Source: a virus. Taken from it: DNA of 64,000 nt. How positions within the stretch are numbered: position 1 is the stretch's first letter; the number at the start of each line of letters is the position of its first letter. The stretch is taken from IMG/VR virus record IMGVR_UViG_3300042691_027855, positions 1-64,000 of that record; one strand, given 5' to 3'. This document shows positions 17,646 to 48,001 of this stretch, piece by piece. A model generated the notes under the pieces. The model was not told the origin of the DNA, did not search any database, and worked only from the letters and a program-made list of their open reading frames with translations. Both the position numbers and the translations under genes were made by a program.

Positions 17646-17718
17646 ACCTTTATTATGGCTCAAAACGCCACAGAAGTAAAGGGGGTAAACCGTCCTCCTA
17701 GGTACGGTTAACCGCCCT
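17646..17718 (-). promoter_or_regulatory. Leaderless promoter cassette 3
   Basis: -35 TTTACT 17675-17680, 17 bp, -10 CATAAT 17652-17657, 6 nt, ATG. The TAA of the upstream kinase gene lies inside its GGGCGGTTAACCG half-site. Confidence 0.8.
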
Positions 17719-18454
17719 GAGCCTCAGCGAGTAGGCGAGTCAGAAGGCGGTCTACCTCCGGCCACTGGTCGCTGGGTCGGTACTTGCGCAGGCGGACCAC
17801 GTGCGACATCTCAGCTGCCAGGGCCTGGGTCCACAAGGGTTTCCCCAGCCTTTGGCGAAGGTGGGCGCACAGAGGCGCAGGGTCGCCACCTGGGTGTGAG
17901 TTAAACAATCGGTGGTAATCGCTGTGCACAGACTGAAGCAGTTTGCCCAAGTCGAGCACGTAGGACTGGAACAAATTCTGCTTAAAGTTTGGGTCGATCA
18001 GAACGATGCCCCCGTTATTTTCTACAATGATGTTTTCAAGCGTCAGATCTCCGTGTGAGAACGAGGATGGCAGTGGCTCAATTTCGTCGAGGATTTCGAA
18101 AGTTCGACGAACTATATCACTGTCCGCCAGAGCAACGTGCTCTGAGTGAAGACGATCTTTGTAGGAAGCCCAGTCTGCATTTCGCGTTGCTGGAACCGCT
18201 GACCACAGAAGGATTTGATCTACAAGCGTGTCAATCAGGCGAGTCGATTCAATCTGCGTGCCGCAGACTCCTTCGACAAACTCAATATCGTACTCGGAAC
18301 TGGACACGCAAACGGTTTGTGGAAGCCGAATCCCTGGTGCCAAGGTGTACCGCGAGGCAATGCGAAACCAGTCGCACTGCTCAGCGGCATCCTTACACTT
18401 CTTTCGTATGAAATCCCCGGAGAAGTCCAGGGTCGCTCCACTACTTCCCTTCAC
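17708..18454 (-). CDS. Aminoglycoside phosphotransferase-like small-molecule kinase (248 aa)
   Basis: The Brenner-type catalytic loop FSHGDLTLENIIVEN (about residue 133-147) and following IDPNF (metal-binding Asp) are those of the APH/choline-kinase fold, which phosphorylates hydroxyls of small molecules with ATP. I chose GTG 18454 (GGGAG 8 nt upstream); an in-frame TTG is at 18460. Overlaps the nucleotidyltransferase gene. In the context of the next two genes it probably makes a phosphorylated precursor. It ends ...AQGG with the stop supplied by the promoter cassette. Confidence 0.75.
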   Translation of the reverse strand: MKGSSGATLDFSGDFIRKKCKDAAEQCDWFRIASRYTLAPGIRLPQTVCVSSSEYDIEFVEGVCGTQIESTRLIDTLVDQILLWSAVPATRNADWASYKDRLHSEHVALADSDIVRRTFEILDEIEPLPSSFSHGDLTLENIIVENNGGIVLIDPNFKQNLFQSYVLDLGKLLQSVHSDYHRLFNSHPGGDPAPLCAHLRQRLGKPLWTQALAAEMSHVVRLRKYRPSDQWPEVDRLLTRLLAEAQGG

Positions 18455-19154
18455 GAACAAGCTCCCGAATCCGAGCGCAATCAGCCTCGTAAGTTAGGTC
18501 GCCCCAAGTTACACCCAGGGAAGAAAGCGAGATTGCCTCCCGAGTCTTGGCCATGTTGATCATATCCGTGATTTCAACCTCGCCACGATCACTCTTACGC
18601 AGCTCACCAATCGTGTTCAAGTAACCAGCTGGAAAACGCGCGAAGCCGCAGAAGTAACGACCTTCCAGTTGGCCATGGGGTTTTTCAACCACGTAATCTT
18701 CAATCACGGTAGCCAGCTGCAGGTTTCGCGGACTCAGTGATTTGTGCAGGTAGGTGAAATAAACTGAATCGTCAAGATCTGAACTCAGCAGAGCTCGTTC
18801 TGCAATTGGCATTACCCCTTGATAGTAGTTGTCCCCAAACAATACGGTAAACGGTCCGTCAATCACACCGGCCCACGTTGTAATGGCAGCTCCAGGGCCA
18901 TACGTGTCTTCACTCTGGAAGCGCACAATCGGGTCACAAATCTTTGATACCTCTTCAAGAACAGGGTGGTAGATTCGTGCGCCATCGGTTTTCACCGCTG
19001 AACGTGAAAGCGTCAGATAGATGTTTTCTGCACCGTTTTCGAGAGCGAACTTGGCTGCCAGGTAAGGAAGTGACATCCCGTCAAACTTCTCCTCAAGTTT
19101 ATTTCGGCCGAACCTAGTGCTACGACCGGCAGCAAGAATGAGTGCGTTCTTCAT
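18441..19154 (-). CDS. Nucleotidyltransferase, sugar-phosphate type (237 aa)
   Basis: The N-terminal ALILAAGRSTRFG...K signature is that of NTP_transferase (RmlA/GlmU-like) enzymes that activate sugar or alcohol phosphates with NTP; TVLFGDNYY supplies the metal-binding Asp. A later EITDMINMA resembles the product-site region of these enzymes. Sits between a kinase and a HAD phosphatase with overlaps on both sides: a kinase-nucleotidyltransferase-phosphatase set for making an activated group. Confidence 0.82.
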   Translation of the reverse strand: MKNALILAAGRSTRFGRNKLEEKFDGMSLPYLAAKFALENGAENIYLTLSRSAVKTDGARIYHPVLEEVSKICDPIVRFQSEDTYGPGAAITTWAGVIDGPFTVLFGDNYYQGVMPIAERALLSSDLDDSVYFTYLHKSLSPRNLQLATVIEDYVVEKPHGQLEGRYFCGFARFPAGYLNTIGELRKSDRGEVEITDMINMAKTREAISLSSLGVTWGDLTYEADCARIRELVREGK

Positions 19155-19507
19155 TGTGCAAACTCTTTGTATTTTGCGGAGAACTGGGCGGGTGTCACCG
19201 CTTTGTCGTCAACGTAGTACGCCGCCCACGGTTTTCCAATCTGAATGGAATCGTAAGGCACATCGTATTTAGTGCAGAATTTTTCGATCTCCTCGATAAC
19301 TTCTTGCCTCACACTTTCGATATTTCCGTTTGAGCGCCCCATTCCACGAGCGGTATGAAGAATAATCGTCCACCCTGCCTCCTTCATTGCTCGCATACCC
19401 GTGATAACTTCCATCTTTGGGCGCGAGTTCTCGTAGTCCCTGTTTACCGTGGTGAGGATTGTATCGTCAACGTCGAAGACAATGGTTTTCTTTGGGTCGG
19501 GAATCAT
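19151..19507 (-). CDS. HAD phosphatase, capsule-biosynthesis (BcbF/EcbF) type (118 aa)
   Basis: IVFDVDDTI is HAD motif I with both catalytic Asp residues, LHTARGM gives the motif II region, IGKPW..YYVDDKAV gives motifs III and IV. This compact layout matches the TIGR01689-like family encoded in capsule loci. The mRNA has a leader of about 20 nt, and TATGTT is a weak -10. Substrate unknown. Confidence 0.78.
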   Translation of the reverse strand: MIPDPKKTIVFDVDDTILTTVNRDYENSRPKMEVITGMRAMKEAGWTIILHTARGMGRSNGNIESVRQEVIEEIEKFCTKYDVPYDSIQIGKPWAAYYVDDKAVTPAQFSAKYKEFAQ

Positions 19508-19578
19508 AGAGAGTCAGGAGCTGTTCTAAACATAGGTCGCGAGAGCTGCAAGTAAAGGGCGGAAAACCGCCCAGTTTC

Positions 19579-20403
19579 TCACACAGGAATGACTTCTGTC
19601 GTCAGAGTTTTCAGGCGAATCTCAGCGTATCGAGAAAGCCACTCGTCCTTCGTCCGTCTGGTCTTAGGTGTTGCCAGCTCAGAGAACTCAGCGCAGATTC
19701 GCTCAACCGTCTCGTTGTTGGTTTGAAGTTTCCGTTCCAGGTCTTCGCAAGTGCCACCACCACCGGTGTGTTGCTTTGCCTTGACGCAAACGTTGTCGAA
19801 CCGTAGAGTTCCCTTCCCGTGCACAGTGTGGTACAGCGACAGGAAGTAATCGTCTTTCATGCTGTACTCCGTGATTCGATCAAACGCTGGGTCGCCAGCG
19901 TAGAAACCGAAGGCGTGGCCCATAATGAACTTAAGACCCACGGTGATCTTAGGGTGAAGGAAACCCTTGTTACGCACTGCGTAGAAACCCCAAAGGCCGA
20001 CATCTCGTCGCCCGCTCATTCGGAACCCTCGTTCAATCAGCTCAGACATATTTTCCACCGAGTTTAGGCGGCTCGGGTGGTCCAGCGGCTTTTGCGTCCC
20101 CGTCAGCGGGGCAAGCAGTTCGAGTTCCTCAACGGCGCTAACATCGTCGTCAAATGAAAAAACAGCTGTTCCTTTGTCGTAATAGTTGGAAATGAAGCGA
20201 CGTTGATTCGTCAATCCTTTCTCACCAACAACAATCTCGTACTGCGGGTTTGAACTTTGATATTTTTCCAACTCCTGGTCGTTGGCCACGAACAAAGTCA
20301 CTCGGGACAGATCGACGTCGGTTTTTTCAAGATAATTCAGAGTCAGTTTCCGGACGCCGTCCGGACGCCCGTAAGTTGGTATGGCAATCTGGTAGTCAAG
20401 CAT
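19579..20403 (-). CDS. Glycosyltransferase, GT-A type, possibly TET-associated (274 aa)
   Basis: Starts MLDYQIAIPTYGRPDG at 20403, overlapping the dioxygenase stop by 8 nt. The N-terminal strand plus IPTYGRP and the FSFDDDV DxD motif (about residue 80-86) define a GT-A nucleotide-sugar-binding fold. The direct coupling to a TET/JBP-like gene suggests that it adds a sugar to the hydroxylated base, as described for phage TET-associated glycosyltransferases. That role is inferred from gene order. Acting on host surface glycans is the alternative. Confidence 0.78.
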   Translation of the reverse strand: MLDYQIAIPTYGRPDGVRKLTLNYLEKTDVDLSRVTLFVANDQELEKYQSSNPQYEIVVGEKGLTNQRRFISNYYDKGTAVFSFDDDVSAVEELELLAPLTGTQKPLDHPSRLNSVENMSELIERGFRMSGRRDVGLWGFYAVRNKGFLHPKITVGLKFIMGHAFGFYAGDPAFDRITEYSMKDDYFLSLYHTVHGKGTLRFDNVCVKAKQHTGGGGTCEDLERKLQTNNETVERICAEFSELATPKTRRTKDEWLSRYAEIRLKTLTTEVIPV

Positions 20404-21760
20404 TGGGAGTAACGTCGGGTTGTCCTTTGATGTTGGTGTTGGAGCAGCGCTCCATCTTTTGAAGCTTCTTGTACTCCTCCCACTCAGGGCTGCACCACAT
20501 TCCGAGGAAGGAACCGTTCCACTTCGGCTCACCTGTTCCTCGCTCAGGGTGGTTGGTTGTAACCCATTCCATGAAGGATCGTCGGCAAGCTTCACACTCC
20601 AGGTCATCCAGGGTGACGATTGCGTCCCGTGAGTAAAACACAAGAACAAGGTTCTCAGCATCCTCGCTCAGCGGAACGAATGGAGTTTGACCGTGAACAA
20701 AGCCCTGGTTGTCTCCAATCAGAATGTCACCGTGGCGCATGTGAAAACCAAGGCCAAGTTGAGGCATCACAAAGTCAACGCCATTGTAGGAACCCCGGTC
20801 CATACAAACGAGAGCGGCCACAGCGTCCTTTGCGTTCTGACCGTCGTAATGCCAGCAGGTGGGAAAGTTGTAGTTGCAGGTGATTGAGGAGAAGACCGTA
20901 TCAAACAAACTGTAGCGGGTATCTGCGATATCCTTGTACCTGTTTCGCAGGATTCCCCACTCCCTCGGAAAGAGGTCTTTTGTCAGAGAATCAACTTCCT
21001 TGTAGAAAGGTGCGAACGAAGCGAAGTCGTCGTACCGCTCCATCGTTGGGGAAGTTAACCGGGCAAAGGGTGTTCTCCCTGAGCGAGTGATTGTGCCTAG
21101 AACGGCTGAGAAAACTTTCTGCCCCCGAGGTTGCTTCGTTACGTAACGTGCTTTCCCTGCGATCGCAGTTGCTTTCCGGTCCTCAGAGGGAGCCCACTCT
21201 CGAACCAGCCAATTGTCGAACCACACCAGTTTGGCAGCATTTCTGTTCAAGATGGCCGCCTGTTTCAGTTCAAACGGCGTGCTCTTTTTTCGGACGAGGC
21301 TGTCCCACTTTTCAATCTCGTCGAGATCCACTAAACCGTCCGCTTCGACTTTTCCCACAAAGTAGGTTGTTCTGGAAACGCGAGTATCAGCGGCGACGAT
21401 TGCCCTGGCTTCTTCCAAGTCGGTCACAAGGCCCTTCACAGCCTTACTGAAGAACACTTTCTGACCTTCGGTTAGCCGGATTTCCACGTTCGTGGTGATT
21501 TCCGAACCAGCGGCGTTTCCGCGTTGGTCTGACAGAAGGGACTTACAGGCCCAGCGCCAGTACTCAAATTCTTTGCTGTTGGGTTGGATATTGGCTGCTG
21601 CTTTCAGACCTTTTTTGCGAAAAGCGACGGCGAGTGAACCATCGGGGCGGTACACGTTGCAATCTTCATCGATAAGTTCGAGGAAATCCGTCGATGAAGG
21701 CACACCACCAAGTCGTTTGTCGTCAAACGGAACTAGCGCGTCTAAGTAAATTTCTCTCAT
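20396..21760 (-). CDS. TET/JBP-like 2-oxoglutarate/Fe(II) dioxygenase (454 aa)
   Basis: The double-stranded beta-helix core lies at about residues 280-380: HxD iron ligands H304 and D306 (FPTCWHYDGQN), a PQLGLGFHMRHGDILIG strand pair as in JBP1/TET, and distal ligand H356 (NQGFVHGQTP). JBP/TET enzymes hydroxylate thymine or 5-methylcytosine in DNA. The N-terminal 250 residues are unassigned and the end has cysteines (LECEAC, MWCSP) that may bind zinc. Preceded by TATAAT and GGGTAAAA. Assignment rests on motif order, not on an alignment. Confidence 0.75.
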   Translation of the reverse strand: MREIYLDALVPFDDKRLGGVPSSTDFLELIDEDCNVYRPDGSLAVAFRKKGLKAAANIQPNSKEFEYWRWACKSLLSDQRGNAAGSEITTNVEIRLTEGQKVFFSKAVKGLVTDLEEARAIVAADTRVSRTTYFVGKVEADGLVDLDEIEKWDSLVRKKSTPFELKQAAILNRNAAKLVWFDNWLVREWAPSEDRKATAIAGKARYVTKQPRGQKVFSAVLGTITRSGRTPFARLTSPTMERYDDFASFAPFYKEVDSLTKDLFPREWGILRNRYKDIADTRYSLFDTVFSSITCNYNFPTCWHYDGQNAKDAVAALVCMDRGSYNGVDFVMPQLGLGFHMRHGDILIGDNQGFVHGQTPFVPLSEDAENLVLVFYSRDAIVTLDDLECEACRRSFMEWVTTNHPERGTGEPKWNGSFLGMWCSPEWEEYKKLQKMERCSNTNIKGQPDVTPNA

Positions 21761-21871
21761 GATGTTTAAGGAGTAACCTCACAGTTTTACCCGCCTCATT
21801 ATAGCGGTGCGGTTCAGCGGTAAGCAAAATAAAAGGCGGTTTCCCGCCCATCCGACCAACCAGTTAAGGTC
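21761..21871 (-). promoter_or_regulatory. Promoter region of the modification cassette
   Basis: TATAAT and, just downstream, GGCGGGTAAAACT (GGGTAAAA 21785-21792, 25 nt before ATG). An SD-like AAGGAG... is absent but ACTCCTT is complementary. GGGCGG-like remnants (GGCGGGAAACCGCC) upstream could be a diverged cassette or a small hairpin. Confidence 0.5.
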
Positions 21872-22486
21872 TTACTGCTTGTATTCGCAGAGGATTTCAG
21901 ACTCTTGGTCAAAGGCGCAGTTGAGCAATTTTCGCATTTGGCGGGCGACATCAAGGTCTTTACCGAGGTAAAGAGTCGTTTTCAGAAGGTCGCTGTACAC
22001 AACCGGTTGCTCTTTGGTGATTTCCTCGTCATAGAAGTTGACTCGGTAAGCAACGCCATTTGATTCGCAAAGTTCGTTTATTCGCTTTGCGTGCAGAATG
22101 AAATTCTCTCCGTGACCCTTGATTCCATCGTCAAGGTTCTTCATATCGAGATAAGCGTGAAGCATCTCGTGAAGCAAGGTGCTGCGAACTTGCAGGGGAT
22201 CTTTCGCAGCGAGGCGAGCGAGTTTGATTTCCCCCGTTCCTCGGTTATTTGGCTTGTAAGTCCCCCATTTAGTTCTGTAACGACCTTCCCACTTGAGACG
22301 CGGATACGAGTTCCAGGTCTCTCCGTTTTCGTCGGTGCGAGAGACAACCTTGAGAACCGGAAGTTCTCCGTTGAAATACTTCGCATTGAACTCGGCGTAC
22401 AACTCGCCAAGGTCATAAATCGCGCAAGGGTTGGGGCAGAACCGTTCAAAGAACGAATTCGAAATTGTCGTTTTGAATTCCGTCAT
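21872..22486 (-). CDS. SprT-like zinc metalloprotease (204 aa)
   Basis: The HEMLHAYLD motif (zinc-binding HExxH, about residue 105) followed by GHGENF with the third ligand histidine defines the SprT/Spartan family. The region before it (LPVLKVVSRTDENG...YPRLKW) fits the family fold. Eukaryotic relatives cleave DNA-protein crosslinks; phage role unknown. ATG 22486 overlaps the upstream stop. Confidence 0.82.
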   Translation of the reverse strand: MTEFKTTISNSFFERFCPNPCAIYDLGELYAEFNAKYFNGELPVLKVVSRTDENGETWNSYPRLKWEGRYRTKWGTYKPNNRGTGEIKLARLAAKDPLQVRSTLLHEMLHAYLDMKNLDDGIKGHGENFILHAKRINELCESNGVAYRVNFYDEEITKEQPVVYSDLLKTTLYLGKDLDVARQMRKLLNCAFDQESEILCEYKQ

Positions 22487-22728
22487 CAGTCGCGAGCGGA
22501 GTGGATGGACTCGTTGATCTTCGCGGCGTAGGCCGTAGGGGTAATGCCGGTGGCCGCCGCCCTCCACTCCAGGAAGGCCACCCCGGCCCGGTCGCAGAGG
22601 GCTTCGTACTTGGCGATGGCATGCGGTGACCAGGGGCTGGCCATGGCACCCTGCTTGTGGTAGAAGGCCAGCTTGGCCTGGGTGGCTTGATCGTAGAGGG
22701 CTTTGAGTTGGGTCTGAACGTCTTTCAT
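22486..22728 (-). CDS. Hypothetical protein (80 aa)
   Basis: Helical and Ala-rich (LKALYDQATQAKLAFYHKQG). Start set by a cassette promoter with ATG at predicted +1. Coupled to SprT. The coding sequence around 22500-22680 is unusually GC-rich compared with its neighbours. Confidence 0.7.
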   Translation of the reverse strand: MKDVQTQLKALYDQATQAKLAFYHKQGAMASPWSPHAIAKYEALCDRAGVAFLEWRAAATGITPTAYAAKINESIHSARD

Positions 22729-37771: not shown

Positions 37772-37857
37772 CGGAGAGAACAGGACTCGAACCTGCGAAG
37801 GGTTTTATCCCCCGACCGCTCTCGAAACGGCGTCCTCGACCGAACCGGACTCTCTCC
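37772..37857 (-). tRNA. tRNA-Ser(CGA)
   Basis: Acceptor GGAGAGA/TCTCTCC, TTC loop, long variable arm, anticodon CGA. Confidence 0.9.
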
Positions 37858-37861
37858 AAGG

Positions 37862-37943
37862 TGTCCCCTGCCGGACTTGAACCGGCACGACTACTGTCAG
37901 CGCATTTTAAGTGCGCAGCGCCTACCAATTACGCCAAGGGGAC
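37862..37943 (-). tRNA. tRNA-Leu(UAA)
   Basis: Stem GCGCA-CTTAAAA-TGCGC, anticodon TAA, variable arm present, GTTCAAG T loop. Confidence 0.9.
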
Positions 37944-37947
37944 AAGG

Positions 37948-38020
37948 TGCTCAGTGCGAGGATCGAACTCGCCTGTATCCGATTATGAGTCGGGTGCTTT
38001 CACCAGATAGCTAACTGAGC
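37948..38020 (-). tRNA. tRNA with CAU anticodon, probably Ile2
   Basis: Anticodon stem CCGACTCATAATCGG is like bacterial tRNA-Ile(CAU), whose C34 is modified to lysidine; elongator Met cannot be excluded. Confidence 0.8.
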
Positions 38021-38048
38021 AAAACCTGTGTTGCACTCCGAAAACAGT

Positions 38049-38324
38049 TTAGCTGGAACTCACGAGCCGGTAAATTGGGCCGATGCGGTTTCGGAACATG
38101 AGCTCGATCGTTGCAAGTTCTGGCGACCTTTCAGCTTTCTTGCGAGATTGGGAATCCTTCCAGAAGATTAACGTCTCGACCATCCCTCCAGGGTTGACTG
38201 AGTGGGTCTTGCGCAAGAAGCCACGTTGACGTTGAAGCCAGGAGAGCCAGACTTGATTGTCGGCGGTGATAAAATCTTCTACAAGGTGGGGTGTAACCTG
38301 GAACAGCAGACGCTCAATTTCCAC
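38049..38324 (-). CDS. TIGR03792-like cyanobacterial protein (91 aa), GTG start
   Basis: VEIERLLFQVTPHLVEDFITAD..W..QRGFLRKTHSVNP...ETLIFWKD follows the layout of the small TIGR03792/ABM-like ferredoxin-fold family found in cyanobacteria. GTG 38324 has AGGAG 9 nt upstream; the in-frame TTG at 38348 has none. Probably acquired from the host. Function unknown. Confidence 0.65.
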   Translation of the reverse strand: MEIERLLFQVTPHLVEDFITADNQVWLSWLQRQRGFLRKTHSVNPGGMVETLIFWKDSQSRKKAERSPELATIELMFRNRIGPIYRLVSSS

Positions 38325-38577
38325 GCTTCCACTCCTCCCACTTGTCAACGGGGCACCGCATATTGGCTGACGCGGTCTTCAGCGGCATGAAACAACCGCA
38401 AACCTCACAGGTTTGACTGTCGCTGCGGTAACGGTCGCAGCTTTCACAGATTGCCATCCGCTCTTTCGCCACGGCGCGAGGGGCAATCGTCGGATCCTCG
38501 AGAAGTCGTTTCGCCGTGTCTTTGATCGAGGCTGCGAAACTTCGACGACAACAATCCGGATCGTTCACATCCCCCAT
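38314..38577 (-). CDS. Cys-rich zinc-binding protein (87 aa)
   Basis: ICESCDRY..TCEVCGCFMPLKT..MRCPVDKW: the compact C-pattern of a phage zinc-ribbon family often found near packaging genes. Function unknown. Overlaps the downstream gene. Confidence 0.75.
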   Translation of the reverse strand: MGDVNDPDCCRRSFAASIKDTAKRLLEDPTIAPRAVAKERMAICESCDRYRSDSQTCEVCGCFMPLKTASANMRCPVDKWEEWKRGN

Positions 38578-38750
38578 GCTTTCCTCCGTTGAGCGTTTTT
38601 AGGGTCGCAATTTTTCGCGTATTCCATTGGAGTAACCATCAGCCATTCCCCCGAGTTTTCTCCAGAAATTAAAGGGAGAGTTTCGTCGTGGGTTAAATTC
38701 TCGTATTCGGATCCGTCTCGCATTTTGACTCGATAAAGAGGTTCACTCAC
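38565..38750 (-). CDS. Hypothetical protein (61 aa)
   Basis: Beta-rich N-terminus (LYRVKMRDGSEYENLTHDE); ends in a basic helix. Coupled to neighbours. Function unknown. Confidence 0.62.
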   Translation of the reverse strand: MSEPLYRVKMRDGSEYENLTHDETLPLISGENSGEWLMVTPMEYAKNCDPKNAQRRKAWGM

Positions 38751-38952
38751 TTTCGATCTCCCTCATTCGGTAAACGCAAGTAAACGTCTCGGCGGCTTGG
38801 TAAGCGAAGGAGGCTGCGGCGTCTAGTGCCCTTTCAATCTGCTTGGGGTCATCATGCAACAATACTGCGACCCTTTCCATTTGGAAGTCTTTCACTATAC
38901 CGGTGTAGACTTTCTTGGCGACCTCGAGGTGGGCGGCTTTGATCGGATCCAT
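38743..38952 (-). CDS. Hypothetical protein (69 aa)
   Basis: Helical (AAHLEVAKKVYTGIVKDFQ; ALDAAASFAYQAAETF). ATG overlaps the upstream stop. Confidence 0.62.
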   Translation of the reverse strand: MDPIKAAHLEVAKKVYTGIVKDFQMERVAVLLHDDPKQIERALDAAASFAYQAAETFTCVYRMREIESE

Positions 38953-39434
38953 CAGTCCCAGTACGAATGAAGTGTGCGAAGATGCGAGAGTATTATACCG
39001 TCCTCGACAGAGCGGTAAACTGAGGGCAGCTTTCCGTGTTCCTTGTAGTATGCCAGCTCAGAAACAATGGCACGAGTCACGGTGCAATCGGCAACCCACT
39101 CACGAAACCAGAAACAATCGAACTTTTCAATATACCGCCAAGTGGGATCTTCGTGGGTCCACGCTCTGCCGTAACCATCGTACTTACTAGAAAGACTCCA
39201 GCCCAGATCGTCGCAAATCCAGGCATCGTAACGCTTAGGGTCGTCGATAGTGAGGACCTGCGTATACTCTTCAGATCCGCCCTTTGCTTGACACCAGACG
39301 AAGTCTTCGCCGGGATCGTTTGAACGACTGCATTTGAAAACGCAGTTGACTATCATGTAGGGGACATTGGGCCACGGTTTAGGTGACTCCGAGGTGCGAA
39401 AGTCCACCCGAAGGTTTGTGATTTGCAAGGCCAT
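38952..39434 (-). CDS. Hypothetical protein (160 aa)
   Basis: Rich in Trp, Tyr and Cys (PYMIVNCVFKC; WRYIEKFDCFWFREWV). No domain recognised. The upstream gap carries a GGAGA ribosome-binding site. Confidence 0.65.
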   Translation of the reverse strand: MALQITNLRVDFRTSESPKPWPNVPYMIVNCVFKCSRSNDPGEDFVWCQAKGGSEEYTQVLTIDDPKRYDAWICDDLGWSLSSKYDGYGRAWTHEDPTWRYIEKFDCFWFREWVADCTVTRAIVSELAYYKEHGKLPSVYRSVEDGIILSHLRTLHSYWD

Positions 39435-39456
39435 GATTTATCTCTCAGGAGAATAA

Positions 39457-39711
39457 TCAGTCATTGACGCCTCCGAGCAGTGCTTTGAAGAAAGCTAGCC
39501 GATCGGACGTGTAAGAACCGTCCACACCGTGACGAGCGCAGAACGCCAAAATAGCCTTGGTGGTTTCGCTTGGGTAAGGACTGGCGAAAGGACCGTACTC
39601 GATGTGATCGAGGAACTCTTGGCGCATGATTTTGCGGAGAGTTGCGATGTCGTCTTGATCCACGGTGATGGATCGTTCGCGCGGAGCGTAGCCGTAAAAG
39701 GTAATTTGCAT
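39457..39711 (-). CDS. Hypothetical protein (84 aa)
   Basis: Beta strand (ITFYGYAPRERSITVD) followed by helices. No family recognised. Confidence 0.62.
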   Translation of the reverse strand: MQITFYGYAPRERSITVDQDDIATLRKIMRQEFLDHIEYGPFASPYPSETTKAILAFCARHGVDGSYTSDRLAFFKALLGGVND

Positions 39712-39742
39712 TGCGGTAGAAAGTGATGTGGACGCAGTTGGG

Positions 39743-40150
39743 TCACTTGTTCATTTGCAGAGTAGGAACAGGCATTCCACCCTCAGTGGGAACGTAGATG
39801 GTTACGTTACCTTTGTTGGAACCTTCTTCCAGTCCAGTGATGTACAGATACTGGAGGTACTCGCGATTGTCCTTCAGAGAATCGCCAATGATCTGGTTTG
39901 CCTTGGCAACACCAGAAGCACGGATGATTTCGGCATCAGCAAGTTGTTGTGCAGAATCTTTCTTTGCTTGTGCTTCCAGAACTGCTACCTGGCGAGTGTA
40001 TTCTGCCTTCTGCAGTTCTGCCTTACCGGCAAGAGATTGTTGCCACACATTGTACAGTGGACCACCAACAAAGAGGAGACCACCAACTACCACAATACCA
40101 ACAGCAACAAGAGCAATGGCGGGGTCAATAAATCCGTTTTGAGTTTTCAT
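39743..40150 (-). CDS. Membrane-anchored coiled-coil protein, prohibitin/SPFH-like tail (135 aa)
   Basis: N-terminal TM helix (PAIALVAVGIVVVGGLLFVGG) then a long coiled coil (LQKAEYTRQVAVLEAQAKK..DAEIIRASGVAKANQIIG) like the C-terminal region of prohibitin/stomatin proteins. The SPFH domain itself is missing, so this may be a truncated or minimal member acting at the host membrane. Confidence 0.62.
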   Translation of the reverse strand: MKTQNGFIDPAIALVAVGIVVVGGLLFVGGPLYNVWQQSLAGKAELQKAEYTRQVAVLEAQAKKDSAQQLADAEIIRASGVAKANQIIGDSLKDNREYLQYLYITGLEEGSNKGNVTIYVPTEGGMPVPTLQMNK

Positions 40151-40153
40151 GGT

Positions 40154-40456
40154 TTAGCGAGTAATAACGACAAGTTTTTCTTGGGGAATCAGACTCAGAA
40201 TCTCATTCATCGTGGGAGATTCTTTCTCACCCAGAAACTCTTTACAAATTCCCCCATAGTTTAGTCCAAATTCGTGAGTGAATACAGGACGACCCAGTGA
40301 CTTCTCAACTGCTTCGTGAAAGACATCGAAGGGGCAACAAAGTTCTTTTGTGAAAAGTTGAAATTCAGCAATTTCACGATAAGACTTTTCTTTCCACCAC
40401 TCAGTATCATACAATGCAATTGCCTTTTCCGCACCAATAGAATTTTTAGGAGACAT
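40154..40456 (-). CDS. Hypothetical protein (100 aa)
   Basis: MSPKNSIGAEKAIALYDTEW..; contains FQLFTKELCCPFDVFHEAVE, perhaps a small helical domain. AT-rich codons compared with neighbours. Function unknown. Confidence 0.62.
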   Translation of the reverse strand: MSPKNSIGAEKAIALYDTEWWKEKSYREIAEFQLFTKELCCPFDVFHEAVEKSLGRPVFTHEFGLNYGGICKEFLGEKESPTMNEILSLIPQEKLVVITR

Positions 40457-40460
40457 ATTT

Positions 40461-40988
40461 TCAGATTGCCTCCGTAACGATCTTGGCACCCTTGAACTTG
40501 GAGCGAGCACCTTTGTTCTTGGTGTCAACGCCTGTCACCACCGCAACTTGCGGCGTGGCGGAACCAGTGTGCAGCAGAATATCATCTTTCTTCAGAACAC
40601 CGGGAGTGCCGATGTAATGGGTTTCTTTGCCATTGATAGAGGCGCTGAAGGTGTAAGGCACAACTTCTTCCAGTTGGTCCTTGTCCAGAACGTGAATGGC
40701 ACCGGTGGTCTTTTCCTCAATCAGATACTTGTTCTGACTGTTAGTGCCAATGTGGGTGCCGTAAGCGGTCTTGCCGTCAACAGTGAAGGAGTACAGGGTT
40801 TTGGTGTCAGTCATTTCAGTTTCTTGTTCGTAGGGTTTCAGGTCGGTGCCGTAGGTGTGAAAGGCTTGGCCGGACTCAAGGTAGACGCACTTGTAGTAAC
40901 CTTGCATATTGGATTCTTGACGACAAACTACTTCTGCTGGTTTTTTGCCGTTGAGCTTGGTGACGAGGTCACCGATTTGAAATTTCAT
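40461..40988 (-). CDS. Hypothetical protein (175 aa)
   Basis: The N-terminus (FQIGDLVTKLNGKKPAEVVC..YYKCVYLESGQ) is an SH3/YodC-like small beta domain; an internal ATG (MTDTKTLYSFTVDGK) may start a second product. The second half is beta-rich. Start ATG 40988 with TATAAC 6 nt upstream. Confidence 0.65.
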   Translation of the reverse strand: MKFQIGDLVTKLNGKKPAEVVCRQESNMQGYYKCVYLESGQAFHTYGTDLKPYEQETEMTDTKTLYSFTVDGKTAYGTHIGTNSQNKYLIEEKTTGAIHVLDKDQLEEVVPYTFSASINGKETHYIGTPGVLKKDDILLHTGSATPQVAVVTGVDTKNKGARSKFKGAKIVTEAI

Positions 40989-41007
40989 CGTCTTGTTATA
41001 GAGGAAC

Positions 41008-41033
41008 AAAAAAGGGGGGAGATTTATCCCCCC
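41008..41033 (-). terminator. Strong rho-independent terminator after the DUF932 gene
   Basis: GGGGGG(A)-TAAATC-(T)CCCCCC followed by TTTTTT on the minus strand, directly after the TGA at 41041. Confidence 0.85.
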
Positions 41034-41040
41034 AGTAGGG

Positions 41041-41874
41041 TCACACAGCAGCCAGTTCGGTCAGCACTCGCATCGCACGCTGGTTGATGCGAGAACCCTG
41101 GCCAAAGTTGGCGTAGTTGAAGCGACCAGCCGAGGTCTTCCGCGAGTAGTTGGAAGCGTATTCGGTCACAGCGTTGAACGCATCGTAGAAGGTGCGACCT
41201 TCGTTACCGCGACCCGTGTAGAACAGACCGTTCAGTTGGGTCACAAAGGAGTCACGCATGGTGTCAACATCTTTCTGGTAGATCGCCTCCAGAGCGTTAC
41301 GGAACTGCGCCTGGGAGCAAGGCGTAACGGCCAGCTTATCCACGTACTCGGCGTATTTTTTCATCGCACCGTTGACGTAGTCAACCACAGCGGTGGATTC
41401 AAGCACACGCTCGTTCACACCAGCCTGGTGACGGTACTTCTCGCTCAGGTCAGAGTAGGCCATTGCGAAAGTGTTACCGCAGATGACGCGAGTGGCCGAA
41501 GGACCGATTGCAACGCTGGCGTTACCAACGTGGCCGTTCAGAAGGGTGATGTAAGCCTTGTAGTTCTCGCCGATGACTTTGAACTCTTGGTTAACTTGGG
41601 CTTGGGCGAAGACCCGAGCACCGTTGTTCAGGTAACCCATGTTCTCAACGGAGAGCAAACCTTCTTCAACCATGGGGTTGATCAGTTTCAGAAGGTCGCT
41701 GTTTTGAACCGTCTCGTAATTGGGAGACACGGAACCGAGGCACTTACCGTTGTCATCGCGGACTACGGCAACTTTCTCGTCCCACTTGATGGGTTGACCG
41801 TCGTTACCGGTGAAGAACAGGGGACGGTGAGACACGGTCCAGTCGAGGTTGTTGGTGACAGCAAAAGCAGGCAT
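41041..41874 (-). CDS. DUF932 phage/plasmid-like protein (277 aa)
   Basis: WTVSHRPLFFTGNDGQPI..; VSPNYETVQNSDLLKLINPM; VICGNTFAMAYSD are hallmarks of the DUF932/TIGR03299 family, widespread on phages and plasmids, function unresolved. Start at ATG 41874 with a 31-nt leader after TATAAT, unlike the leaderless genes, and a strong terminator, so it is a one-gene unit. Confidence 0.88.
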   Translation of the reverse strand: MPAFAVTNNLDWTVSHRPLFFTGNDGQPIKWDEKVAVVRDDNGKCLGSVSPNYETVQNSDLLKLINPMVEEGLLSVENMGYLNNGARVFAQAQVNQEFKVIGENYKAYITLLNGHVGNASVAIGPSATRVICGNTFAMAYSDLSEKYRHQAGVNERVLESTAVVDYVNGAMKKYAEYVDKLAVTPCSQAQFRNALEAIYQKDVDTMRDSFVTQLNGLFYTGRGNEGRTFYDAFNAVTEYASNYSRKTSAGRFNYANFGQGSRINQRAMRVLTELAAV

Positions 41875-41905
41875 GTTGTTTTCGGAAGTTGTTTGAACTG
41901 TAAGT

Positions 41906-41973
41906 ATTATAGCGGGTTTTGGGACGGAAGTAAAGCGGGTAAACCGCCCCGGCAAGGTACGGGAAACCGCCCT
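41906..41973 (-). promoter_or_regulatory. Promoter cassette 13 with a leader
   Basis: -35 TTTACT 41929-41934, 17 bp, -10 TATAAT 41906-41911, but 31 nt to ATG. The half-sites are GGGCGG-like at both positions. Same cassette core, but not leaderless. Confidence 0.78.
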
Positions 41974-42185
41974 CAGCGCACGCAGTAGTCGCGCGAGCGA
42001 GTCCAGCCGATGGGGCAGGTTTCTCCACCATTGTAGAAAACTTGGGTGTTACCTTCAGGAACGCAGGCACCACCGGACGCAAACGTTCGGATTGGGCAGC
42101 TGCCAAATTTCTGCACAGGAATGCTCTGTGCCAGGACAACTTGGCCGAAGATCACAGAGCCGAGGCAAAACAGAAACGGTTTCAT
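41973..42185 (-). CDS. Small secreted Cys-rich protein (70 aa)
   Basis: Signal peptide (KPFLFCLGSVIFGQVVLAQS), then SCPIRTFASGGACVP..ETCPIGWTRSRDYCV with six cysteines probably in disulfides. Likely exported to the periplasm. I recall similar 'CP.GW..S.DYCV' proteins from cyanobacteria. Confidence 0.7.
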   Translation of the reverse strand: MKPFLFCLGSVIFGQVVLAQSIPVQKFGSCPIRTFASGGACVPEGNTQVFYNGGETCPIGWTRSRDYCVR

Positions 42186-42418
42186 TCTGAGAGATTCAGG
42201 TCGTTTATGAACAGAAAAGAAAGGCCAGCGTCGCAAGCGTCCGCCATGAAAAGACCTTCGTTGCGAAGCAGTTCCGCATCAGCATGGTTTCCTTGTTTAT
42301 AGAGGAACTCAACCTGATCAGCCATGTCTTCAAGACGACTCGCAACGAGCGTCTGAAGTTCAATTCCGCGCATATTTTCGAATTCCTCGATGAAATAAGA
42401 GTGTTCGGTGTGGTTCAC
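42182..42418 (-). CDS. Hypothetical protein (78 aa), GTG start
   Basis: GTG 42418 overlaps the stop of the 46-aa gene. Acidic helical (SRLEDMADQVEFLYKQGNHA). Coupled to the secreted protein. Confidence 0.62.
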   Translation of the reverse strand: MNHTEHSYFIEEFENMRGIELQTLVASRLEDMADQVEFLYKQGNHADAELLRNEGLFMADACDAGLSFLFINDLNLSE

Positions 42419-42555
42419 AGGTACTTGAGCTCCAGGGTTTGAATGATCGGCTCAATCTCACGAGCAGTGTAAGCAGTGGCGCTGTAAACACCGTCAACGT
42501 AAATGTCGTATCGGGGACCGAGGTGGGTACGGCGAACCTTGGTGGTGATTTCCAT
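42415..42555 (-). CDS. Small hypothetical protein (46 aa)
   Basis: MEITTKVRRTHLGPRYDIYVDG...; short beta-hairpin plus helix. ATG at +1 of cassette 14. Confidence 0.62.
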   Translation of the reverse strand: MEITTKVRRTHLGPRYDIYVDGVYSATAYTAREIEPIIQTLELKYL

Positions 42556-42631
42556 GATATAACTATAGCTGGTTTTGGCACGGGAGTAAAGGGGGTAAAC
42601 CGCCCTGGCGTGGGCGGGTAACCGCCCCCTC
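42556..42631 (-). promoter_or_regulatory. Leaderless promoter cassette 14
   Basis: -35 TTTACT 42585-42590, 17 bp, -10 TATAGT 42562-42567, 6 nt, ATG. The distal half-site reads GGGCGGTTACCCGCCC. Confidence 0.85.
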
Positions 42632-42923
42632 AGGCGTCCCCGAACTCTTTCTTCAGGCGTTCGTACTCCCGGCGACGACTGTTTCGAATGAACTCTTCTC
42701 TATTGAGACGAGCGTTAAACTCCTCGTCATTTTCCTCTCTTCGCTTGGTTACCGTAAAGATTGCGGTAACGCAGTCGTAATATCCTCGCTTGGCTTCCAG
42801 CTCCACTTGCGTGAAACCTTGTTCCATCGCTTCCGTCAAATTTGCAATAGCTGTTTGAATGGAACAATAGTCGATGTCGAGTTGACGAGTCTCGGTAATT
42901 TGTTGACGTTTTTGCGCAGTCAT
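42630..42923 (-). CDS. Hypothetical basic protein (97 aa)
   Basis: Charged helix (NREEFIRNSRRREYERLKKE) near the end. The stop lies at the start of the cassette (TGAGGGGGCGG). Confidence 0.65.
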   Translation of the reverse strand: MTAQKRQQITETRQLDIDYCSIQTAIANLTEAMEQGFTQVELEAKRGYYDCVTAIFTVTKRREENDEEFNARLNREEFIRNSRRREYERLKKEFGDA

Positions 42924-42936
42924 TGTTTTGTAATTT

Positions 42937-43170
42937 TCAGGTTTTGGTAAGGGCTTGTTTTTGAGCCTCGATCCAGCGGCTTTCGAAAACTTCCCTCATA
43001 CCGTCGCGAAAAGCGAGGATGGCTGCTTGCTGAGCTTTACTGTGCAGAGAGTCTGCCAAGTAAGTCGCGTGGTGGTGAACCAAGCTCTCGAAGTCTCTCG
43101 CTCCGGCTTCGTACGCTTTTGCGTAGAACTCTTTCAGGTCGGATGTCAGTGAATCGATGGCGTCAGTCAT
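42937..43170 (-). CDS. Hypothetical protein (77 aa)
   Basis: Starts MTDAIDSLTSDLKEFY at 43170 (overlapping the next stop). Helical with ARDFESLVHHHATYLADSL. Function unknown. Confidence 0.62.
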   Translation of the reverse strand: MTDAIDSLTSDLKEFYAKAYEAGARDFESLVHHHATYLADSLHSKAQQAAILAFRDGMREVFESRWIEAQKQALTKT

Positions 43171-43381
43171 TGTTGTCCCAGTCAGCAACTGTGGTATAGG
43201 TTTCGATAAGAACAAGCAACAAGCCACGGTAATCACCCCGGACGGCTGCAATCGCTTCTTCGCGAGTCGGATAACCGTATCGGTTGAAGACGTAATCACC
43301 CCAACTGGTTATGGGGTCCGACAGATGACCTTCTCCAGAGAGAAGCTTCCAGCAGTAACTAACTTCGAGCTTTGTTTTCAT
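43163..43381 (-). CDS. Hypothetical protein (72 aa)
   Basis: MKTKLEVSYCWKLLSGEG..REEAIAAVRGDYRG: possibly a small alpha/beta domain. GGAGGTC ribosome-binding site upstream. Function unknown. Confidence 0.62.
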   Translation of the reverse strand: MKTKLEVSYCWKLLSGEGHLSDPITSWGDYVFNRYGYPTREEAIAAVRGDYRGLLLVLIETYTTVADWDNND

Positions 43382-43416
43382 TTTGTGGAGGTCATAAACA
43401 ACAAGTGGAATTGTAA

Positions 43417-44133
43417 TCAAGCTCGAATTTCAACGAGTTCCTTCCGGTGGCAGTCCCAGAGGACCAGGGCAGGCGACTCTTCGCAGAACCACGACCGCTT
43501 GACCCCACCGCAACCGGCATCGAGCACCAAAGAATTCTCGGTTGAGCAAACCACGTGGTAGTGTCCGGCGACGCGCACCCAGGGCCGCTCGCTGGCGTGC
43601 TCCCACCAGAATACACGACCTTTTCCTTCTTTACTGTTTGGTCCGTACATCATCAGGCTCTTCGCCTTCTTCGGCACGTCAAATACCATGTGAAACAGCG
43701 GGTAATCAGGCACTTCGAGCCAGGAAGGGAAGTATGCGTGTGAGCATCTGTACTCCTGGTTTGAATCATCGCGAAAACAGAAGCCGTAAGGCATCGTTTC
43801 CAGCCACTGGCCCACTTCCGACAGCGGAATCTCAGCCGCCACGAAATCCTCAATCGTGCGAGCCAACTCAGGCGAAACGTGAACGTTATTTCCGCGAATG
43901 TATCGCTCCAGCTTGTCCTGGTGGTTGGAACGCAGAACAATCGCACCCAGTTCTTTCTGAGCTTGCTTCAGCAGCTGGTACACACCAGCGGAATCGCTGA
44001 AGTCGCAGCGGGAGTCAAACACATCGCCCAGAATTACGGGAATCAGAGCGTTGTTTTGGCAATAGGCCAAAGCCTCCCACAGAGGGCGATACTGCGAGTG
44101 AATATCGCCGATCAGACAGTAGTTACGGTTCAT
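43417..44133 (-). CDS. Calcineurin-like metallophosphoesterase (238 aa)
   Basis: LIGDIHSQY, LGDVFDSR, LRSNHQ (in place of GNHE), SHAYF and AGHYHV give the metallophosphoesterase motifs with a changed third motif, so activity may differ. Second phosphoesterase of the window. Unknown substrate. Confidence 0.78.
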   Translation of the reverse strand: MNRNYCLIGDIHSQYRPLWEALAYCQNNALIPVILGDVFDSRCDFSDSAGVYQLLKQAQKELGAIVLRSNHQDKLERYIRGNNVHVSPELARTIEDFVAAEIPLSEVGQWLETMPYGFCFRDDSNQEYRCSHAYFPSWLEVPDYPLFHMVFDVPKKAKSLMMYGPNSKEGKGRVFWWEHASERPWVRVAGHYHVVCSTENSLVLDAGCGGVKRSWFCEESPALVLWDCHRKELVEIRA

Positions 44134-44136
44134 TAT

Positions 44137-44370
44137 TCAAGAACCACCGTAAACGTAATCCTTAACACCTTCTTCCTCGTCTACAACTTGGTAGACCGAG
44201 TAGGAGTTATTTTTGACGGCATCGTCGTACTCTTTCATATGCCAGCCGAACTCCTCCTCGAACAGCTCACGACAACGCTCCAGCGAGGAAGCAGCGATCA
44301 CGACCATGCCCGCCGTGTAATCGTACAGGACGTCGTGGATGATGTACAGGTTCATTTTCTTCATTTCCAT
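44137..44370 (-). CDS. Hypothetical protein (77 aa)
   Basis: Start MEMKKMNLYIIHDVLYD at 44370 is set by cassette 15. Contains LERCRELFEEEFGWH and an acidic end. Internal ATGs are less likely because the promoter places +1 at the first. Confidence 0.66.
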   Translation of the reverse strand: MEMKKMNLYIIHDVLYDYTAGMVVIAASSLERCRELFEEEFGWHMKEYDDAVKNNSYSVYQVVDEEEGVKDYVYGGS

Positions 44371-44444
44371 ACCTTTAGTATAGCTCACTTCCCCCGTTTT
44401 CGAAAGGGGGGCAAACCGCCCTCCCAGGTACGGTTAACCGCCCC
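44371..44444 (-). promoter_or_regulatory. Leaderless promoter cassette 15
   Basis: -35 TTTCGA 44400-44405, 17 bp, -10 TATACT 44377-44382, 6 nt, ATG. Confidence 0.85.
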
Positions 44445-44457
44445 CCCTCCATGGCGC

Positions 44458-44982
44458 TCAGTCGTGGTTGCCGCTGTAATCTTCAACCTGGAAACCATCC
44501 CGCGTGGCGATTACCCGGTTGTCATCACCGAACATTCCCAGCATGGGACCCTCAAAGGCGGAATTGCACAGCATCTTGGAAAGTGCCGCCATACTCCCCT
44601 TGTTGATACCTTCTGGGCGGCGGAGTAGATCAAGGTCTTCCACGTTCAAGCGGTTAGCTGCATTCTCTAGATACTTCAGGCCCCAATGCGTACACGCCCA
44701 AATGTCTTCTTTCTCACCGTCATAGTCTTCCCAGCGGATTTGATCCAGGTCTTCAGGTTCGATCGCGTTGGTGAAGACGCAGTCTTTCACTGAGAATGTG
44801 CAGGGCGCTCCATCGTTGAAATAAGGTGCGTACTGCGTCCAAACAACTGCGTTAATCCCGGGGTTCAGTTCCCAGAACTTCTCAAACATCTTGGAAATTT
44901 CTGCGCGAGCACGGGTTTGAAACTCCCGTTGAAACCCCTCAAACTGCTCAATCAGCTCATTCATCGTGTTTTCCGTTTTCAT
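44458..44982 (-). CDS. Hypothetical protein (174 aa)
   Basis: MKTENTMNELIEQFEGFQRE.. Start overlaps the DUF6915-like gene stop. Acidic; no domain recognised (GDDNRVIATRDGFQVEDY at the end). Confidence 0.64.
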   Translation of the reverse strand: MKTENTMNELIEQFEGFQREFQTRARAEISKMFEKFWELNPGINAVVWTQYAPYFNDGAPCTFSVKDCVFTNAIEPEDLDQIRWEDYDGEKEDIWACTHWGLKYLENAANRLNVEDLDLLRRPEGINKGSMAALSKMLCNSAFEGPMLGMFGDDNRVIATRDGFQVEDYSGNHD

Positions 44983-45344
44983 TAGTCGATCTTCAGTGGA
45001 ATAAAGCGGGATTGTTTGTTGCCTTTGGATGTTCCAGACATCCACGGTTGTGGAGTCATGTTCTCCAGGTATTTTTCCACCGTGGGAATAAAACCGAGGT
45101 CCTGTATGATGTGGTCCTCGGCAATGTCCCTCGGTGAGTAAGTTATTCCTGCGGAGTTGGTTCGGACTCGGCCGAACATTTGCTCTACGAGGAAGCAACC
45201 GAACGCGGAATGCAGAATCGCCCGGTGGCGAAAGTCCGGAAAGGTTGCTTTGCTGCTGTCGATAAAGTCATCGATGTCAGCGTAGTCATCGGGAAGTCCT
45301 CCGTACTTTTTAGCGTGGAGTCTCCCGTGTAGATAGGGTTTCAT
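44982..45344 (-). CDS. Conserved phage protein, DUF6915-like (120 aa)
   Basis: DDFIDSSKATFPDFRHRAILHSAFGCFLVEQMFG and SPRDIAEDHIIQDLGFIPTV are the signature of a widely shared phage family of unknown function; I am confident of the family pattern, less of its number. Confidence 0.75.
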   Translation of the reverse strand: MKPYLHGRLHAKKYGGLPDDYADIDDFIDSSKATFPDFRHRAILHSAFGCFLVEQMFGRVRTNSAGITYSPRDIAEDHIIQDLGFIPTVEKYLENMTPQPWMSGTSKGNKQSRFIPLKID

Positions 45345-45393
45345 CGTCAGGATTCAATCAGGGTTCGAGGGTCGCAGCTGGGCTGTGTTAAAG

Positions 45394-46467
45394 TCACAGG
45401 CCCAACAGGGCGTCGAGCTGCTTGGGCTTCATTTGCCCCACGAATTCCGTGAAGTTCGCGTACTTGCCGGCACGAATGCCGAACATTGCACCGGAAACAT
45501 TCGGGTGGTTTTCGAGGACAATGCCCGCAAATTCCTTCTGGGAGTAACCTTCGTACAGTCGCACGAAGCCCTCAACCATGAACCCGATATCGCCGATACG
45601 ATCGCGCAAAGCGTTGAACTCTGCGGAATAGTCGGGGAAGTGCAGCAGGAACTCGTCCAGATCGTCGTTCAGGTACAGCTCGGAGAAGTCAGGATCCCCG
45701 TTACCGCGAACGCGATGCAACTGAACGTAAACGTCGGACTTGACCTTGATTCGGTTACCGTTCGCGTCGCAAACGATGAAGCCTTCGTGGTCGGCACCGC
45801 GAGCGTTGACTGCGTCAACGATGTTGTCAGCACCGAAATTGAAGGACTCAGCCACCCAGAATACGCGGGAGAAATCACCCAGCGGCAACTCTACGAAATC
45901 GTTCGCACGATCCCGCACTGCCAGCAGCCGTAACATCGGCTCGTCGTACTTCACAACGATCCGGTTCTCGGCAGCGCACAACTCAAACACGTAGCAGTAA
46001 TTCGGGTTCAGGTCGAAAGCGTTATAGCGCATGTACCGGAAGGTATCCCAGAACAGCTCTTCAAACGACTTACCGGAATCACCAACGCTGCCAGCACCGC
46101 CGACAGAACCGGAGGTAGAAACAACCCACTGCACACCGTTCCAGAACAGTTTGATCAGCGAGCCATCATACTTCTCGTATACGTTCGCGGAGGACCAGTC
46201 AATCTCATCAGCTTCAGCTTCGCCCAGGTTGAAGAAACGGTCGAACGCGTAAGCTACCAGAGAGAAACCGTCGTCGTCTTTCTGAACTACGGCACCACGG
46301 CAAGCACGCACGATCGGGTTACCCTTGTCGGTACCAATTACTCCGTACTTCAGGTTGAACAAACCAGGGAAACGGTCGTCCGTAGAAACGCGGATGTCCA
46401 GGTCCGCCAGGCGAGCCAGCCCATAGTCATTCAGCCAGTTGATCAGGTTGTTTCGCAAGTTATCCAT
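45394..46467 (-). CDS. RNA ligase, T4 Rnl1-like (357 aa)
   Basis: VYEKYDGSLIKLFW contains the nucleotidyltransferase motif I KYDG with the lysine that forms the AMP adduct; ADHEGFIVCD is motif IV and IKVKSDVYV motif V. T4 Rnl1 seals broken tRNA. The presence of Pnk kinase, HAD phosphatase and about 32 tRNA genes makes tRNA repair a natural role. ATG at +1 of cassette 16. Confidence 0.87.
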   Translation of the reverse strand: MDNLRNNLINWLNDYGLARLADLDIRVSTDDRFPGLFNLKYGVIGTDKGNPIVRACRGAVVQKDDDGFSLVAYAFDRFFNLGEAEADEIDWSSANVYEKYDGSLIKLFWNGVQWVVSTSGSVGGAGSVGDSGKSFEELFWDTFRYMRYNAFDLNPNYCYVFELCAAENRIVVKYDEPMLRLLAVRDRANDFVELPLGDFSRVFWVAESFNFGADNIVDAVNARGADHEGFIVCDANGNRIKVKSDVYVQLHRVRGNGDPDFSELYLNDDLDEFLLHFPDYSAEFNALRDRIGDIGFMVEGFVRLYEGYSQKEFAGIVLENHPNVSGAMFGIRAGKYANFTEFVGQMKPKQLDALLGL

Positions 46468-46540
46468 GCTATAAGCATAGCTCTTTTTGGCCCAGGGGTA
46501 AAGGGGGTAAACCGCCCTCCCAGGTACGGTTAACCGTCCT
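46468..46540 (-). promoter_or_regulatory. Leaderless promoter cassette 16
   Basis: -35 TTTACC 46497-46502, 17 bp, -10 TATGCT 46474-46479, 6 nt, ATG. GGACGGTTAA supplies the last codon and stop of the upstream 56-aa gene. Confidence 0.85.
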
Positions 46541-46700
46541 TTTCGTTATCTTTGATCTCTTTTAGCATATTTTCAATCAAGATCAACCGATTTCCGATTT
46601 GCATCAACAGATCAGTCAAACCTTCGATTTCTTCGTGAATGTCCTGGTGATGAAACCGCAAGGGTTTCTGGATGATCTTACGGAGTTTTGCTTTTTTCAT
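46530..46700 (-). CDS. Hypothetical basic-acidic protein (56 aa)
   Basis: MKKAKLRKIIQKPLRFHHQD then heptad-like EEIEGLTDLLMQI. Ends KDG with the stop inside cassette 16. Directly after the tRNA-Val gene, with TATAAC very near its ATG. Confidence 0.62.
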   Translation of the reverse strand: MKKAKLRKIIQKPLRFHHQDIHEEIEGLTDLLMQIGNRLILIENMLKEIKDNEKDG

Positions 46701-46715
46701 TCTGTTATAGAGAAA

Positions 46716-46787
46716 TGCTCCCAGACGGATTTGAACCGCCGACAATCTCGGTGTAAACGAGGTGCTCTACCGCTGAGCTATAGGAGC
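46716..46787 (-). tRNA. tRNA-Val(UAC)
   Basis: Acceptor GCTCCTA/TGGGAGC, anticodon loop TTTACAC, T loop TTCAAAT; one imperfect pair in the anticodon stem. Confidence 0.85.
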
Positions 46788-46857
46788 TAACGGCCCTTTT
46801 GTTGACGGTGTGAAGCCGAACTCCGGGGTACTTGCAAGTTTGGACCTTACTTTCCCC

Positions 46858-46932: not shown

Positions 46933-46979
46933 AAGGTGGCCCGTAACGTGGGCCAATCGTCACACTTTTCGGGTCACTG

Positions 46980-47997: not shown

Positions 47998-48001
47998 AAG
48001 G

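Follow-up and report, generated by a model that had tools for sequence, protein, structure and literature searches.

A candidate DNA hypermodification system is found in a 64,000-nucleotide stretch of DNA from a cyanophage-like virus (positions 1 to 64,000 of IMG/VR record IMGVR_UViG_3300042691_027855; hereafter the window), which is a portion of a 112-kb virus record. On the minus strand, positions 17708-21760 hold five open reading frames for a TET/JBP dioxygenase (TET), a TET-associated glycosyltransferase (TAGT), a HAD phosphatase, a nucleotidylyltransferase (NTase) and a kinase, the last three of which are referred to below as the trio. The original prediction had described five genes in tight order at this position, and all five are in place:

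20396..21760, minus strand: TET/JBP-family 2-oxoglutarate/Fe(II) dioxygenase, 454 aa (PF12851)
19579..20403, minus strand: TET-associated GT-A glycosyltransferase (TAGT), 274 aa, with a DDD motif (PF20691)
19151..19507, minus strand: HAD-IIIA small-molecule phosphatase, 118 aa (TIGR01689 below cut-off, phrog_1238)
18441..19154, minus strand: sugar-1-phosphate nucleotidylyltransferase with an RmlA/GlmU-type fold, 237 aa (profile against PDB, AlphaFold/Foldseek)
17708..18460, minus strand: small-molecule kinase with an APH/choline-kinase fold, about 248-250 aa (PF01636)

The HAD and NTase genes share 4 nt, and the kinase starts at TTG 18460 or, more likely in view of the ATG of its homolog in the cultured Synechococcus phage S-CBWM1, at GTG 18454. 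The same five genes stand in the same order as gp8-gp12 of S-CBWM1, with pairwise identities to the window of 36% (TET), 62% (TAGT), 40% (HAD), 50% (NTase) and 47% (kinase). These S-CBWM1 genes are currently labelled 'SNF2 DNA repair', 'capsule phosphatase', 'thymidylyltransferase' and hypothetical, and the reading given below supplies the missing annotation. The NTase is carried by 16 IMG/VR contigs, one of which is S-CBWM1 itself and with several almost identical to the window; 14 of the 16 have TET upstream of an ordered run of TAGT, HAD, NTase and kinase, while one of the remaining two starts inside the NTase and the other (L104) has another transferase. Because the order is kept in S-CBWM1 and in many IMG/VR contigs, and because dN/dS values of about 0.05-0.16 for all five genes (where dS is computable) indicate strong purifying selection, the cassette is not a chance arrangement. 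When the first 25 kb was searched against phages for near matches at the DNA level, none was found.

The dioxygenase matches PF12851 (Tet_JBP) at 1.4e-13 and 50.8 bits (cut-off 34.9), and an alignment of six phage homologs shows residues H304-x-D306...H356 and R378 to be invariant, R378 being a candidate 2-oxoglutarate ligand. The HxD...H iron ligands are present in 197 of 198 homologs, and 27 of 29 related records pass the PF12851 threshold, which agrees with the earlier assignment of this protein to the TET/JBP type from its HxD...H motif. The transferase, which had been predicted as a GT-A glycosyltransferase whose gene overlaps that of the dioxygenase by 8 nt, does share 8 nt with it and matches PF20691 (1.5e-9, 38.5 bits; cut-off 27.5); it is also weakly similar to phrog_842, a beta-glucosyl-HMC-alpha-glucosyltransferase (2.2e-10).

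In the trio, the HAD phosphatase is complete, with all four HAD motifs present (DVDDT, T, K and DD), and it matches phrog_1238 at 2.7e-22. Its match to TIGR01689, the EcbF/BcbF capsule phosphatase model, reaches 1.3e-25 but at 89.8 bits stays under the curated cut-off of 162, and membership in that family was therefore rejected. The NTase matches RmlA/Arch_glmU models and PF12804, and a ten-sequence profile finds 2ggo (2.1e-13) and 3hl3 (1e-12) in PDB, in alignments that bring the EKP and RGE-EITD motifs together; its AlphaFold model (predicted local distance difference test, pLDDT, 82.5) is matched to RmlA by Foldseek at 5.6e-13, and no PHROG match was found for it. The kinase matches PF01636 (APH) at 8.8e-6 and 26.1 bits (cut-off 23.2), phrog_21938 at 1.3e-4 and phrog_4098 at 0.0084. 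The best Foldseek matches of its model (pLDDT 88) are fructosamine kinases (FN3K), aminoglycoside kinases (APH), maltokinase and ethanolamine kinase, and since the fold matches small-molecule kinases a role as protein kinase was rejected. The logic of phosphatase, kinase and nucleotidylyltransferase is like that of MupP-AmgK-MurU in the recycling of N-acetylmuramic acid (MurNAc) and of GmhB-HddA-HddC, but the similarity is at fold level only, and the window trio sits in a DNA-modification cassette. Membership in the MurNAc-recycling set was rejected, the HAD match being weak and the window NTase matching no MurU; the likeness is kept as an analogy.

The trio can be tied to DNA glycosylation because of three independent facts. 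L104, a short cyanophage contig, has the trio immediately behind the gene of a 463-aa protein, and a psbA-like frame follows close downstream. The 463-aa protein finds nothing in PDB but the T4 DNA alpha-glucosyltransferase (AGT; 3.2e-10) and scores 25.5 bits against PF11440 (cut-off 25), with a shorter domain-level score that falls under the cut-off. In Stenotrophomonas phage DLP_6, the gp28-gp30 region has a row made up of TAGT (PF20691, 9.9e-10), HAD (unannotated, 5895-6275 of L006), an NTase-APH fusion of 563 aa and TET, so that all the components are adjacent as in the window, but in a changed gene order and with NTase and kinase fused; the DLP_6 TET is about 25% identical to that of the window. 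In RB69-like phages, an NTase-kinase fusion and a HAD lie beside a SIS isomerase and a thymidylate-synthase-like gene (thyA). Homology joins the window HAD to those of DLP_6 and RB69-like phages, with phrog_1238 in common (the cassette HAD profile finds the RB69-like HAD at 2.6e-21), and phrog_21938 appears to be a kinase family common to the window, DLP_6 and RB69-like kinase domains. Arabinosyl-hydroxymethylcytosine (arabinosyl-hmC) has been chemically shown in RB69-like phage DNA, and the SIS isomerase, NTase-kinase and HAD have been proposed to make uridine diphosphate (UDP)-arabinose (PMC6024577; PMC8056088). In Shewanella phage Thanatos, a homolog of the RB69 fusion is required for normal propagation (PMC12838424).

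DLP6 DNA is listed as restriction-enzyme resistant in a 2021 review (PMC8228603, Table 1), and PMC5349666 gives 18 restriction enzymes as tested. Adenine or N4 methylases were rejected as the cause, neither PF01555 nor PF02086 being found in DLP_6. Because the phage has no match to PF00145, PF00303, PF01555 or PF02086, the cassette is the best present candidate for this resistance, on circumstantial grounds, and a concrete one.

These families and motifs, the gene order, its conservation and the linkage to DNA-type transferases are observed directly, and from them we infer that the enzymes act on DNA, which base and sugar are involved, and that the DNA is protected. We consider it very likely that the five genes form a phage DNA-glycosylation cassette working in three steps and ending in protection, and we are highly confident, on the gene content, of DNA glycosylation as such, whatever the base or sugar. 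The earlier proposal of a DNA hypermodification cassette is upheld by TET and TAGT scores over their cut-offs, the link to an AGT-type enzyme in L104, the DLP_6 set and the families shared with RB69. In the proposed scheme, TET/JBP would act on phage DNA after replication and hydroxylate a pyrimidine at its 5-methyl group; the likeliest conversion is that of thymine to 5-hydroxymethyluracil. The HAD and the APH-fold kinase would relocate the phosphate of a sugar, which leaves the terminal carbon and ends up on the anomeric one, and the RmlA-like NTase would activate the sugar 1-phosphate to a nucleoside diphosphate (NDP)-sugar, in parallel with heptose and MurNAc activation and with the UDP-arabinose synthesis proposed for RB69-like phages; it is likely that the phage produces this donor. 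TAGT would then move the sugar onto the hydroxymethyl group of the base, and the sugar-decorated DNA would withstand host nucleases.

Several points weigh against this scheme. The SIS isomerase (PF01380) was missing from all 12 records that are of the cassette type or related to it, but present in 1 of 1 RB69-like control, and the window NTase has little direct similarity to the RB69-like NTase domain, the link being at family level only. The sugar-activation role in RB69 itself is a literature proposal only (PMC6024577; PMC8056088). Many other Stenotrophomonas phages are also resistant in the table that lists DLP6 (PMC8228603, Table 1), which makes that evidence circumstantial, and the DLP_6 resistance stands without an assigned cause. 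In addition, 5-methylcytosine (5mC) could be supplied by a host C5 methylase, and many of the 103 TET- and/or TAGT-bearing viral records in which such a methylase was sought are fragments.

As to the base, the C5-cytosine methylase family PF00145 was found in none of these 103 records, fragments and the complete S-CBWM1, DLP_6, Cr30, C48C1, HTVC112P and Prairie genomes included, as opposed to 10 of 14 control genomes; among the records searched, no TET phage with a methylase turned up as a positive control. The earlier remark that the window has no DNA methylase is confirmed for the C5 type, PF00145 being found neither there nor in the rest of the 112-kb record. No thymidylate-synthase-type dCMP hydroxymethylase (PF00303) turns up in the record of the window, in S-CBWM1 or in DLP_6, the latter two being complete genomes, and ThyX is encoded both by the window's virus (at 94.7 kb of the record, outside the window) and by S-CBWM1. 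Because thymine is then the only 5-methylpyrimidine that the phage supplies, its hydroxylation is the likelier event, and thymine is moderately favoured over 5mC as the target. The same cassette could instead act on cytosine, with host methylases or undetected enzymes making 5mC, TET oxidising it to 5-hydroxymethylcytosine and TAGT glycosylating the product. The only phage TETs known from biochemical work, reportedly those studied by Burke and colleagues (PNAS, 2021), act on 5mC, RB69 and the T4 AGT family use hmC, and in L104 it is an AGT homolog that accompanies the trio. Set against the 103 records without a C5 methylase and the two complete genomes without the hydroxymethylase, the cytosine route appears doubtful, though a serious competitor. 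With thymine as the target, the cassette would follow a phage route like that of base J, in which TET hydroxylates thymine in finished DNA and a non-glucose, phage-activated sugar is added; this full combination is put forward tentatively, at slightly under an even chance. If it is true, cyanophages and DLP_6 would carry 5-(glycosyloxymethyl)uracil, which is previously undescribed. The cassette also suggests that phage TET-type enzymes may be thymine hydroxylases in lineages that lack C5 methylases.

The activated group had been called possibly non-sugar, a suggestion now disfavoured: because the NTase is of the sugar-1-phosphate nucleotidylyltransferase type, with EKP and RGE-EITD motifs, a sugar is the more probable group. 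That the sugar is certainly arabinose was rejected, the arabinose-5-phosphate isomerase (SIS) being missing, and because no such enzyme would feed arabinose 5-phosphate, the sugar may be drawn from a host pool (ribose 5-phosphate and host arabinose 5-phosphate are examples) or be an aldose of another kind. A pentose is a tentative choice that does not quite reach an even balance. That the trio instead makes a cytidine diphosphate (CDP)-alcohol of the choline, ethanolamine or glycerol type, with a phospho-alcohol as the DNA substituent, would fit with ethanolamine kinase among the folds matched by the kinase and inositol-1-phosphate cytidylyltransferase among those of the NTase. It is nevertheless unlikely, as the NTase has its nearest matches among sugar-1-phosphate nucleotidylyltransferases, with both motifs kept, choline-phosphate cytidylyltransferase is not among its sequence matches, and the transferase is a GT-A glycosyltransferase in a cassette without a LicD-kind phosphotransferase. 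Very improbable is a role of the trio and the glycosyltransferase in decorating a surface glycan or virion protein beside an unrelated TET, since that transferase is a TAGT, with a gene that runs into the TET gene and a link to TET that recurs in unrelated phages, and since the trio is also paired with a T4-type DNA glucosyltransferase; what speaks for such a role is the resemblance of the HAD to capsule phosphatases and a HAD-kinase fusion with an NTase in an apparent surface-polysaccharide locus of Paenibacillus sp. A3.

The DNA-glycosylation cassette, as we read it, shares with RB69-type (Mosigvirus) phages a HAD, an APH-type kinase and an NTase as a unit linked to DNA hydroxymethylation and glycosylation. 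The RB69 set has been described as ORF055c (SIS isomerase), ORF53_52c (NTase-kinase), ORF051 (HAD) and ORF003c (transferase) (PMC6024577; PMC8056088). RB69 makes hmC before replication by a thymidylate-synthase-like enzyme, whereas the window TET would hydroxylate in situ; the RB69 transferase is AGT-like, as opposed to TAGT, and the NTase and kinase, which are fused in RB69, are separate genes in the window, which has no SIS isomerase. Phage TET/TAGT systems (PF12851 with PF20691) are said to have been described by Iyer and colleagues in 2013 and by Burke and colleagues in 2021, and the window is like them in having TET and TAGT side by side, both over curated cut-offs; it differs from them in having no C5 methylase and a dedicated NDP-sugar trio. 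With the kinetoplastid base J system (JBP1/JBP2 and JGT) it would share a TET/JBP hydroxylase and a glycosyltransferase, by analogy and if thymine is the target, but the JBP pathway makes glucosyl-hydroxymethyluracil from cellular UDP-glucose, whereas the window sugar appears to be phage-made. The cassette would join in situ TET hydroxylation and TAGT with RB69-style sugar activation, in cyanophages and a Stenotrophomonas phage, and in the cultured S-CBWM1 and DLP_6 a base-J-like modification could be sought at once.

Two terminator-like sites were found by a consensus scan in and next to the cassette:

21834..21849, minus strand: terminator-like GC hairpin and T run, between the SprT-like gene and the cassette
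19557..19572, minus strand: terminator-like GC hairpin and T run, between the glycosyltransferase and HAD genes

The former weakly suggests that the cassette begins its own transcription unit and the latter, as weakly, that it may be divided into TET-glycosyltransferase and HAD-NTase-kinase units, the count of such sites in the region being not above that in shuffles. The SprT-like metalloprotease gene (21872-22567, minus strand) lies just upstream of the cassette, and it holds this place in many relatives too, as does gp6 in S-CBWM1. DNA-protein crosslinks can be targets of SprT proteins, so a functional tie to the cassette is possible. The protein at 23634, which had been called Nmad1-like, is not borne out as such: it has no Pfam match, the one good match it does have is to phrog_1485, a family of unknown function, and PF07659/DUF1599, which we take to be Nmad1, was not found in the record at E values up to 10.

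Variants of the cassette and of the trio are also seen elsewhere. In the sub-lineage of L094, L095-L100 and L110-L116, TET and TAGT are separated by about 2.2 kb; in L094 (3896-4660) this stretch includes an R2K-clade ATP-grasp ligase (PF14243, 2.5e-20) and an Rv2179c-like exonuclease, hinting at an extra step such as amide ligation. Two TET/JBP genes occur in one phage genome in G031, the 277-kb contig behind L098. Enterococcus phage 9183 (L225:3684-5659) is by its gene content likely to hold another DNA-sugar cassette: a HAD and an NTase-kinase fusion are next to genes for thymidylate synthase, dTMP kinase and dUTPase, two more putative transferases are present, and no TET is nearby. In Pseudoalteromonas phage vB_Psh_XG4 (L226:990-2969), an unannotated HAD and an NTase-APH fusion stand at the record start. 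A scan of genome contigs turned up two plain RmlA loci and a single informative relative in bacteria, that of Paenibacillus sp. A3 (L186:6439-8654), where a HAD-APH kinase fusion is followed by an NTase related to that of the window, a possible bacterial source of the trio.

Other TET loci are differently equipped. In Arthrobacter phage Prairie (L218:3063-5334), in which PF00145 was not found, a divergent TET-like oxidoreductase, a TAGT-like transferase and a glucosaminyl deacetylase stand in a row. Caulobacter phage Cr30 (L007:7491-13964) has, within a single stretch, TET, an ADDT amino acid:DNA transferase (PF18724, 1.3e-52), a TAGT-like protein and inositol-1-phosphate synthase. The cyanophage-like C48C1 (L008:5419-8866) has TET and, after it, a 344-aa protein (phrog_14998) and UDP-galactopyranose mutase (PF03275, 5.6e-52), a gene set that suggests galactofuranose on DNA. 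Finally, the window holds 31 tRNA genes at 37772-52463, and a large tRNA set is also present in S-CBWM1.

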